DNA of 64,000 nt from Trichodelitschia bisporula (lineage: Eukaryota > Ascomycota > Dothideomycetes > Phaeotrichales > Phaeotrichaceae): NCBI GenBank assembly GCA_010356995.1, contig ML996711.1, positions 198,518 to 262,517 on the forward strand, read 5' to 3'. Each line of letters starts with the position of its first letter. The stretch's first letter is position 1. Made by a program: the position numbers and the translations under genes. This document shows positions 3,381 to 22,486 of this stretch, piece after piece. A model generated the notes under the pieces. The model did not search any database and had not been told where the DNA came from. It saw only the letters and a list, made by a program, of their open reading frames with translations.

Positions 3381-3446
3381 TGTCCCCCTCGTATCCCCCT
3401 CGTGTCCCCCTCGTGTCCCCCTAGTGTCCCCCTCTTGTCCCCCTCA
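3381..3446. repeat. 11-bp tandem repeat, six units
   Basis: Six consecutive 11-bp units of the form TGTCCCCCTCG, differing mainly in the last two positions and once in position 2. The array ends one base before the inverted repeat at 3448. Confidence 0.9.
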
Positions 3447-3447
3447 G

Positions 3448-3503
3448 CCTACGTAGCACTCCTGAGAGCTTTCTTTCAGAAGCTCTCAGGAGTGCTACGT
3501 AGG
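3448..3503. repeat. perfect 24-bp inverted repeat
   Basis: Left arm 3448-3471 and right arm 3480-3503 are exact reverse complements, starting CCTACGTAGCACTCC, with an 8-nt spacer. A transcript could fold into a 24-bp hairpin. No gene is visible on either side. It could be the tip of a foldback element or a recombination product; its function is unknown. Confidence 0.93.
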
Positions 3504-4515
3504 GTGGGTGCCAGGGATGGCCTAACTATTCTCCGGTGGCTCGTCGCCAGCGCAGGCCGCAGGCCCGCGCACCAGCTCCAAAGGGCTAGCCCGTCACACG
3601 AGGTGCCCTCCCTCCAACCATAAACACAATATACTAGGACTAGCAACAACACCAGTCTACCCATACGTGAAGAAGAGTGGATTCAACACCACCCTTACTA
3701 CCAGGAACTGTTGGAAGGGTAGTATCTAGTCAGGCATTGTTGTTCGGGTATGTAGGAAGTGCAACCTCAGGTCGTACTTCCGATGTAGTTTAGCGTGGCT
3801 TGGCGCTGTGCGCACACAGTGGCAACGGACATCATCGCTTCAAGGGAGACAAGTCATAAGAGAGTCTTTGCTTCTGACGCTGCCTGTTGGTGCTCACCCG
3901 TCTAACAATTCTTGAAGAATCCGGGTGTGTGTCTATGACAGGTCCGGCGCGGCAGCCATATAGATATCATTCTAGGCCCGTCGCCGGTCAAGTCCACCGA
4001 CCTGACCTGCAAGGGCTTGGTGTTAGAAAAGCCAGAAACGAAAATTGGCGGATCGCTGGCTAAGCGCCGACCTGCCGCTTTGGTATTTTTGCGGGGAACA
4101 AAGTGATGAACTAATCGGTATTGGGATTCTGCCGAAGGCGGTGGCAGTATTTTTGGCCTACTCGGGACCAACACGGACACAGATCAAAGAGAACACCAGT
4201 CCCCGTCTGCTCACTGAAGTTAAGGTTTGAGCCGGTTGACTAGTAGTTGCGTGGGTGACCAGCAGCGAATCCCAACTGCCGTATGTTTTTGCTATTTTAT
4301 TATGCTCCTGATCTCCACTCCCGTCCATCTGATGTGCTAGTTCTAGCTTGCGGTCACGCTTAGAGAGCTCCACCGTATATCAAGCGGACTCGCTGCAGTT
4401 TACCGCTCAGGCAGTAGAAGAGGGAGACATCATCATTTTGCTCACCAGCTCGGCTTACCTTCCGAGCGATCCAGGTCCGCCTCCTTCACCAGCGCGATGA
4501 CTGATGAGATCAAGG
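3504..4515. other. non-coding, no gene seen
   Basis: Only short unrelated frames occur, none longer than about 90 codons and none with a recognisable domain. Composition is mixed. Confidence 0.5.
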
Positions 4516-19684: not shown

Positions 19685-20868
19685 ATGAGCCAGCAACTTC
19701 TCAACAAGGTACTCCCTTCATCCCCCCTCTAGCTCTAGCTCTCCGATCTAACATCCGCAGGTCGCGATCGTCACCGGCGGCAGCAGCGGTATCGGAGCAA
19801 GCATCGTGCGCCTCTTCCTTGACCACGGCGCCAAAGTCGCCAGCCTGGATATCCGCCAGTCTGCCGAGCCAGACAGCGACACGCTCCTCTCGGTGACCGC
19901 AAACGTGGCCTCGGACTCTGAGGTCCGCGCCGCCGTCGCGAAGGTCGTGGAGAAATGGTCCACGGTCGACATTCTCGTTAACAATGCCGGTGTTATGGAC
20001 CGAGCGAGTACGTGCCCCTCAAAAAGCAGTATCACCCCACATCTTGCTCGAACGTGCGTCCTGTCGAGCACAAGTACCTTGCGGGAATGTTACTACGCCG
20101 TCACGCATACATAACGGCGTAGTAACATTCCCGCAAGGTACTCGTGCTCGACGGAACGCACGTTCGAACAAGGCGTAGGCTGGTACGTGTCATCGTCCTC
20201 GCACAAGCCCAAGCCCTCAAGAAGCACCTTCTGCGGATGATCGATGGCGAGGATGATGACACGTACCAGCTTATACGCGACGCTCTTCGTCGTATGGAGT
20301 CTGAAGCTTTCACCCAGATGAAGACCTCCGCAACCGGCGAGCTCCCCACATAGACTACAGATACTAACATTGCCTAGCTGTGGCCGGTGACGTGCTCAAT
20401 CCCGAGTGGGAGCGCTGCATGGGCGTCAATCTTAACGGCCCCTTTTACCTGATCCGTGCGGTGATGCCGCATTTCCAGGCGCACGAGGGAGACGCCAAGG
20501 GCGTGATCGTGAATATCGGGTCCACGGCATCGGTGCGCGGCGCTGCGGCCGGGCCGGCGTACACGGCTAGCAAGCACGGCCTGCTCGGGCTGAGCCGCAA
20601 TGTTGCGTGGTGGTACCGGCATAAGGGTGTGCGGTGCAATATTGTCCTACCCGGCGGGGTGGAGACGAATATTGCGATGAATAGTTTGACGGGGCCGGTG
20701 AGTCAGGAGGGCATGATGGAAGCGATGCAGCGCATGCGGCCGTATATTGATACTATGCCTGGCATGTTGAAGCCGAGGGATATTGCAAATGCGGTTTTGT
20801 TTTTGGCGACGGCAGAGGGGGTTAATGGTGCTGAGATTGCGGTTGATAAGGGGTGGACGACTGCTTAG
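19685..20868 (+). CDS. classical short-chain dehydrogenase/reductase (SDR)
   Basis: Three exons (19685-19708, 19761-20007, 20378-20868) give 253 residues, the normal SDR length. The cofactor motif TGGSSGIG is at residues 13-20, NNAG at 82-85, and the catalytic triad is Ser139, Tyr152 and Lys156 (YTASK). The C-terminus ends GAEIAVDKGWTTA, typical for the family. It is a cytosolic NAD(P)(H)-dependent oxidoreductase; the substrate cannot be inferred. Intron 1 is 52 nt, but intron 2 is 370 nt (20008-20377), several times the local norm. It keeps proper signals (GTACGT donor, ACTAAC branch, CCTAG acceptor) while carrying two long inverted repeats, so it has apparently been invaded by other DNA. 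Confidence 0.92.
20043..20172. repeat. 59-bp inverted repeat inside SDR intron 2
   Basis: Arms 20043-20101 and 20114-20172 are reverse complements at 55 of 59 positions with a 12-nt spacer. The four differences are all transitions. The inner arms read GGGAATGTTACTACGCCGT and its complement. The fold lies wholly within the intron of the short-chain dehydrogenase. It looks like a foldback or MITE-like insertion. Confidence 0.92.
20179..20270. repeat. 24-bp inverted repeat, second foldback in SDR intron 2
   Basis: Arms 20179-20202 and 20247-20270 match as reverse complements at 23 of 24 positions (GCTGGTACGTGTCATCG...), separated by 44 nt. The one mismatch is a C/T transition. It begins six bases after the first foldback ends, so the two may be parts of one inserted element. 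Confidence 0.9.
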
Positions 20869-22183: not shown

Positions 22184-22486
22184 TCAGCGCTTCGAACTCA
22201 TCGTCCTCGACAAGCCATCCTTCAACTTGCGTCCGGCCGCTCGAACAGACTTCCACCTCCTCGTCAATGGATTCCCGTCAAACTCCCTCCTCATCCGCTG
22301 GCGCAACTCTTCGCGCTCTTCCTCTTCCCGACGGAGCCTTTCGCGCTCTTCCGCTTCGCGACGGAGCCTCTCCTGTTCCCCCACTTCCCGGAGGAGCGCA
22401 TTCAACCGGTCTACTTCGTGACGGAGCGCATCACGCTCCGCCAAAATTCTCCGGCGGCGCTGCTCCTCCTGCCATACTAGCCGCAC
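22184..22486 (-). pseudogene. Glu/Arg-rich coiled-coil frame without a start codon
   Basis: About 100 codons. The body (EEERE-, RLRREAEERE-type repeats) is almost purely Glu and Arg and would form a long charged coiled coil, ending in a basic tail (RKLKDGLSRTMSSKR). The frame has no ATG. An upstream exon starting MSDQPVPIQF near 22548 is possible, but I could not join them in phase with good splice sites. The DNA upstream (22736-22830) is homologous to that upstream of the acidic-repeat gene at 23327-23974, so the two are probably duplicated, diverged genes. Calling it a pseudogene is tentative. Confidence 0.4.

Follow-up and report, generated by a model that had tools for sequence, protein, structure and literature searches.

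Among the described systems closest to the locus reported here, the symmetrical stwintrons of Hypoxylaceae bear inverted repeats of 45-55 nt at their ends and no flanking duplications (PMC8469720); introner families of ascomycetes are presented without terminal inverted repeats (TIRs) or target-site duplications (TSDs) (PMC9860276); and the neointrons of Daphnia pulex are ascribed to the repair of staggered breaks, with direct repeats of 4-12 bp as its trace (PMC4202315). The locus that we set beside these systems is the second intron (20008..20377, forward strand) of an SDR oxidoreductase gene in a window of 64,000 nucleotides, the whole stretch analysed here, from Trichodelitschia bisporula (contig ML996711.1). 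This intron contains two long hairpins, lying next to each other in a putative insert that is flanked by an 8-bp direct repeat, CCCCACAT. We give roughly even chances to the explanation that this state arose through a single insertion into a 61-nt intron, probably by the filling of a staggered break with fold-back DNA. The insert looks like a one-off event, not like part of a proliferating intron family.

Hairpin 1, recovered with an inverted-repeat finder, has 59-nt arms on the forward strand (5' arm 20043..20101, 3' arm 20114..20172) that are complementary at 55/59 positions (93%), with four mismatches, all of them transitions, and a loop of 12 nt. The core of hairpin 2 begins six bases beyond the end of hairpin 1 and pairs at 23/24 positions (20179-20202 with 20247-20270) around a loop of 44 nt; in its extended form the hairpin has 27-nt arms (20176..20202 and 20247..20273, forward strand) with 25/27 complementary positions (93%), both differences being transitions. 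These values reproduce the original prediction of a 59-bp inverted repeat with four transitions, followed six bases later by one of 24 bp with a single transition. A laxer repeat search extended the arms of hairpin 1 to 73 nt at 88%, the 14-nt outward extension adding four transitions and one transversion. The whole intron has a predicted RNA folding energy of -189.5 kcal/mol, while 100 dinucleotide-shuffled versions average -104.3 (sd 5.1) and none of them is as low (z -16.8). Under the settings of the hairpin finder (minimum arm length 20, minimum match 85%, maximum loop 150) the window holds three hairpins, two of which are the intron 2 pair, and 20 genome samples of 10 kb each, some thousands of N included, hold one.

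The 8-bp direct repeat is a new observation on this intron. Its left copy (20035..20042, forward strand), a putative TSD, abuts the 59-bp arm, ending one base ahead of the arm start, and its right copy, found by direct-repeat comparison, lies at 20344..20351 on the same strand. CCCCACAT is the longest direct repeat shared by the left 35 nt of the intron and positions 20280-20377; an 8-mer drawn at random from real sequence turns up in 20271-20361 with a probability of 0.0018, and recurrence of an 8-mer at this spacing is seen at 0.24% of window positions. The putative insert bounded in this way (20043..20343) measures 301 bp, with 55.8% G+C. Deletion of 20043-20351 leaves an intron of 61 nt in which every splice signal is kept, namely the donor GTACGTG (20008-20014), the branch site TACTAAC (20362-20368) and the acceptor TAG (20375-20377). 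The prediction of a 370-nt intron with intact signals at both ends holds. The intron before insertion is predicted to have read ...CCCCACAT-AGACTACAG..., and the direct repeat together with the 61-nt remainder provides a testable picture, before and after, of a short fungal intron gaining several hundred bases.

We propose that the 301 bp entered the existing SDR intron once, with the 8-bp target CCCCACAT duplicated so that a copy stands on each side. The point of entry would have been a staggered double-strand break, and repair synthesis may then have taken in a coding-like fragment and, by turning back on itself two times, yielded two adjoining hairpins. Staggered-break repair is favoured because it accommodates the flanking repeat, the two differing neighbour hairpins, the tail, the single copy, and the absence of any repeat joining the two ends. 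A short direct repeat at the insertion ends, such as this repair leaves, is present at 8 bp, with a reserve on the boundary. The two hairpins differ in sequence, lie at most six bases apart and are followed by a tail outside the hairpins, as expected from patchwork synthesis. Since all splice signals lie outside the insert and would be those of the old intron, the enlarged intron is probably still spliced out. The hairpins would probably loop out the insert, holding the donor and the branch site close together. A more general proposition, which we regard as a long shot, is that repeated fold-back synthesis at an intronic staggered break gives rise to hairpins in series and that these keep the spliceosome from sensing the extra length; if true, chained hairpins would let genomes with very short introns tolerate large insertions. 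Such a route was not found among literature titles and abstracts, which is no proof of its being unpublished.

Several observations weigh against the proposed insertion. The similarity between the arms of hairpin 1 does not stop at the left copy of CCCCACAT: positions 20029-20042 match the complement of 20173-20186 at 9/14, transitions account for four of the five differences, and P is 0.003 if the length is fixed and 0.016 if it is left free; staggered-break repair leaves this similarity unaccounted for. The true boundary may lie further left, although the mismatch rate in this segment is higher than in the 59-bp arms (5/14 vs 4/59, Fisher P 0.010). With a boundary further left, the CCCCACAT repeat would be a product of chance. 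The left part of the intron (20016-20028) also matches the loop of hairpin 2 at 12/13 (P 0.018 against 3860 real 35-mers), which is unexplained. This match comes from a segment-by-segment comparison of the intron, comprising 64 tests reported at P <0.03, where about two are expected by chance; besides both arm pairs and the loop 2 match, it brought out an inverted similarity between arm 1 and the right intron (11/13, P 0.027). One simple insertion cannot account for all three of the CCCCACAT repeat, the arm extension and the loop 2 match, and the direct repeat is kept, with reserve, as the best boundary. Paralogues, taken as a stand-in for the orthologue, speak in the same direction: the own genome has 19 SDR paralogue matches besides the gene itself (24-42% identity, five with an internal stop), and every one of them is unbroken across the place of intron 2, so that the prior short intron is deduced from the 61-nt remainder and not seen in a relative. 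Finally, the template of the inserted DNA was not found in scans of the own genome, IMG/VR and GTDB. The predicted insertion into a normal short intron is supported, with reserve, by the flanking repeat and by a remainder that retains all splice signals, and is left in doubt as to its boundary and by the unbroken paralogues.

The main rival to break repair is a relic of a non-autonomous foldback or miniature inverted-repeat transposable element (MITE)-like DNA transposon, mobilized by a hAT-like transposase with 8-bp duplications and surviving as the last copy in the genome, an explanation that we consider possible and clearly the less probable one. The target-site duplication of hAT elements is 8 bp, as is the repeat flanking our insert, and the strong inverted repeats fit such a relic as well. 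A transposase duplicating 8 bp may exist or have existed in this genome, because hAT dimerisation domains are encoded there (loci L026-L029; four matches over the cut-off, of which the best contains a stop in frame). MITEs are characterized by TIRs at both ends, a target-site duplication and multiple copies. Here, the 8-bp repeat (P 0.0018) could be the duplication, yet arm similarity extends beyond it; the two 40-nt ends of the insert form no terminal inverted repeat better than those of shuffles (P 0.69), contrary to the idea of a MITE with such termini or of an ordinary DNA transposon; and the genome searches described below returned no second copy. In foldback transposons, long inverted repeats form both ends of the element, whereas here the hairpins occupy the left and the middle of the insert, which is closed by a 65-nt tail (20279-20343) without a significant inverted partner inside the insert. 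Two differing hairpins and a tail, in place of one hairpin, likewise argue against a MITE-like relic, and the comparison of the insert ends with the four hAT loci, made without a control, gave local scores of just 15-21. The likeness to MITEs and foldback transposons is thus confined to the inverted repeats and the 8-bp flanking repeat, while a repeat joining the ends, uniformity of the hairpins and a second copy are not in evidence.

The copy number bears on any mobile origin. In the own genome of 25.65 Mb, DNA searches with the whole intron and with 20203-20360 returned only the intron 2 locus, as did two 28-base patterns at up to three mismatches, and the only other match of a protein search with a coding-like stretch of the insert (E 0.015) fell on the other strand of this locus. 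As the genome search scores best candidates only, failing to find further copies is no proof that the sequence is rare; the search was run without a known-family positive control. The expectation of a mobile family found no backing in these results, the intron having a single locus when searched against the rest of the genome.

If intron 2 belonged to the fungal introner-like elements, or were a longer variant of them, it would be a mobile intron that had brought its own splice signals. Fungal introner-like elements are described as having strong secondary structure or inverted repeats (PMC8469720), and the stable fold of intron 2 (z -16.8) agrees with this; further, the 19 SDR paralogue matches are unbroken here, which makes it conceivable that the whole intron was gained recently. 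The likeness to described introner-like elements (PMC4457414, PMC9860276) lies in strong hairpins within an intron of a filamentous-looking fungus, and the differences lie in the 8-bp direct repeat, the splice signals placed outside the bounded insert and the failure of our searches to reveal a second copy. An introner is a whole intron at a new exon position, and removal of the insert from intron 2 leaves 61 nt, to be set against the unbroken paralogue matches. The CCCCACAT repeat speaks against an element that, in ascomycetes, is reported without TSDs or TIRs (PMC9860276), with the qualification that arm similarity passes the repeat at 9/14. We judge an introner-like origin very unlikely, and the suggested kinship with introner-like elements is not borne out by a single genome locus. 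Strong intronic hairpins alone are insufficient to call an introner-like element.

In Hypoxylaceae, the symmetrical sister stwintrons and the cropped introns share with intron 2 the presence of intronic inverted repeats of about 50 nt; in contrast to the latter, their repeats are intron-terminal, the introns are multi-copy and flanking short duplications are lacking (PMC8469720). A stwintron has an internal intron that splits a splice element of the outer one; the donor GTACGTG of intron 2 at 20008 is, by eye only, uninterrupted. Neointrons of Daphnia pulex resemble our case in the length of the direct repeat at the insertion ends, which falls within 4-12 bp, and in representing locus-specific events; they differ in that ours concerns a fungus, an apparent insertion inside an existing intron and two fold-back hairpins, and is drawn from one genome and not from population data (PMC4202315).

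The stability of the fold (z -16.8) and the 93% complementarity still retained by the arms could alternatively mean that intron 2 is an old structured intron kept by selection, perhaps as a source of small RNA or because the hairpins control splicing, an interpretation that we find improbable. Hairpin 1 has four Rfam matches at E up to 1, the best being the MIR4221 microRNA precursor (E 4.4e-5), but all four are far under the gathering score (best 35.3 vs 100 bits), such scores might be obtained from any long hairpin, and one sequence alone cannot reveal pairing-preserving change.

Repeat-induced point mutation (RIP) had been put forward as acting on the arms. RIP changes C to T, mainly in the CpA context. 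With C taken as ancestral, none of the six arm differences (59 + 27 nt, a small sample) is at CpA, three being at CpG, two at CpT and one at CpC; RIP is not indicated as their cause, and the proposal was dropped. The same differences bear on the notion of an assembly or library artefact in the form of an inverted chimera. Palindromic artefacts are known in some libraries, and a perfect 150-bp inverted repeat elsewhere in this assembly might be one; the arms of intron 2, however, differ at 4/59 and 2/27 positions, and the coding frame is intact on either side of the intron, which makes an artefact the least credible of the explanations considered.

What could have been the source of the inserted DNA? 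A coding-like stretch (20204..20353, forward strand) reads in frame from 20204 to a TAG at 20351-20353 and uses codons much as real exons do, in line with a captured fragment, its codon score being 0.19 (Markov null P 0.0004). The scoring used an open reading frame cut-off of 300 aa and skipped N codons. By comparison, SDR exons 2 and 3 score 0.255 and 0.164, held-out coding windows (n = 245) have a median of 0.14, and a score as high as that of 20204-20352 is reached by 16.5% of 4815 random genome windows. No homologue of the stretch was found: Pfam gave five weak matches, none over its cut-off, and neither the 73 candidate stretches from IMG/VR nor the 396 from GTDB genomes contained a confirmed one. 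Ten PDB sequences matched at E up to 5, led by RPB_PLP3_R6 (7ue2; E 1.7e-6), presumably a designed repeat protein; no stretch of this match passes alone, and we take it for helix-composition noise. The best match of intron 2 elsewhere in the window, at 22198, has a local score of 34 vs 25-27 in three shuffles and is taken as coding-like chance, although the shuffles are a weak control and a local source is conceivable.

The host gene (19685..20868, forward strand) starts with an ATG at 19685 and ends with the final base of its stop at 20868. Its exons (19685-19708, 19761-20007 and 20378-20868), joined by removal of both introns, encode an uninterrupted protein of 253 aa, while retention of intron 2 would lead the frame of exon 2 to a stop at 20112-20114. 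The exons match adh_short and adh_short_C2 of Pfam, each over its cut-off, and 124 distinct PDB sequences match the whole protein at E of 1e-20 or lower, most closely the short-chain dehydrogenase 4fn4 (E 9.9e-44). Of NCBIfam models, 189 match at E up to 1e-10, and none of the 25 listed reaches its curated cut-off. Intron 1 is, judging by its splice signals, 52 nt long (19709-19760); the original prediction gave 39-93 nt for the introns other than intron 2. Intron lengths were assessed by a crude count of splice signatures over the window and 20 genome stretches against one Markov draw. The largest excess appears at 40-60 nt (20 vs 3), with smaller ones at 150-200 nt (7 vs 2), 300-400 nt (8 vs 4) and 400-500 nt (14 vs 7); given these excesses at 150-500 nt, the count does not demonstrate an absence of long introns. 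Within the insert, a second GTACGTG (20183-20189), identical to the donor of intron 2, is a possible cryptic donor.

Inverted repeats also occur elsewhere in this genome. The laxer search found 14 inverted pairs in the window, where, beyond the intron 2 pair, only 3445-3506 exceeds 85% complementarity; positions 3448-3503 hold an inverted repeat that pairs perfectly over 24 bp around a loop of 8 nt and adjoins repeated CCCCCTCGTGTC-like units. The perfect 150-bp inverted repeat mentioned above lies on contig C13 of the same genome (locus L018, 3854-4222), has a spacer of 69 nt and showed no second copy in the own genome search; it may be genuine, or it may have arisen in assembly. Beside it, at 4255-4373 of the same locus, is a match to 5S rRNA.
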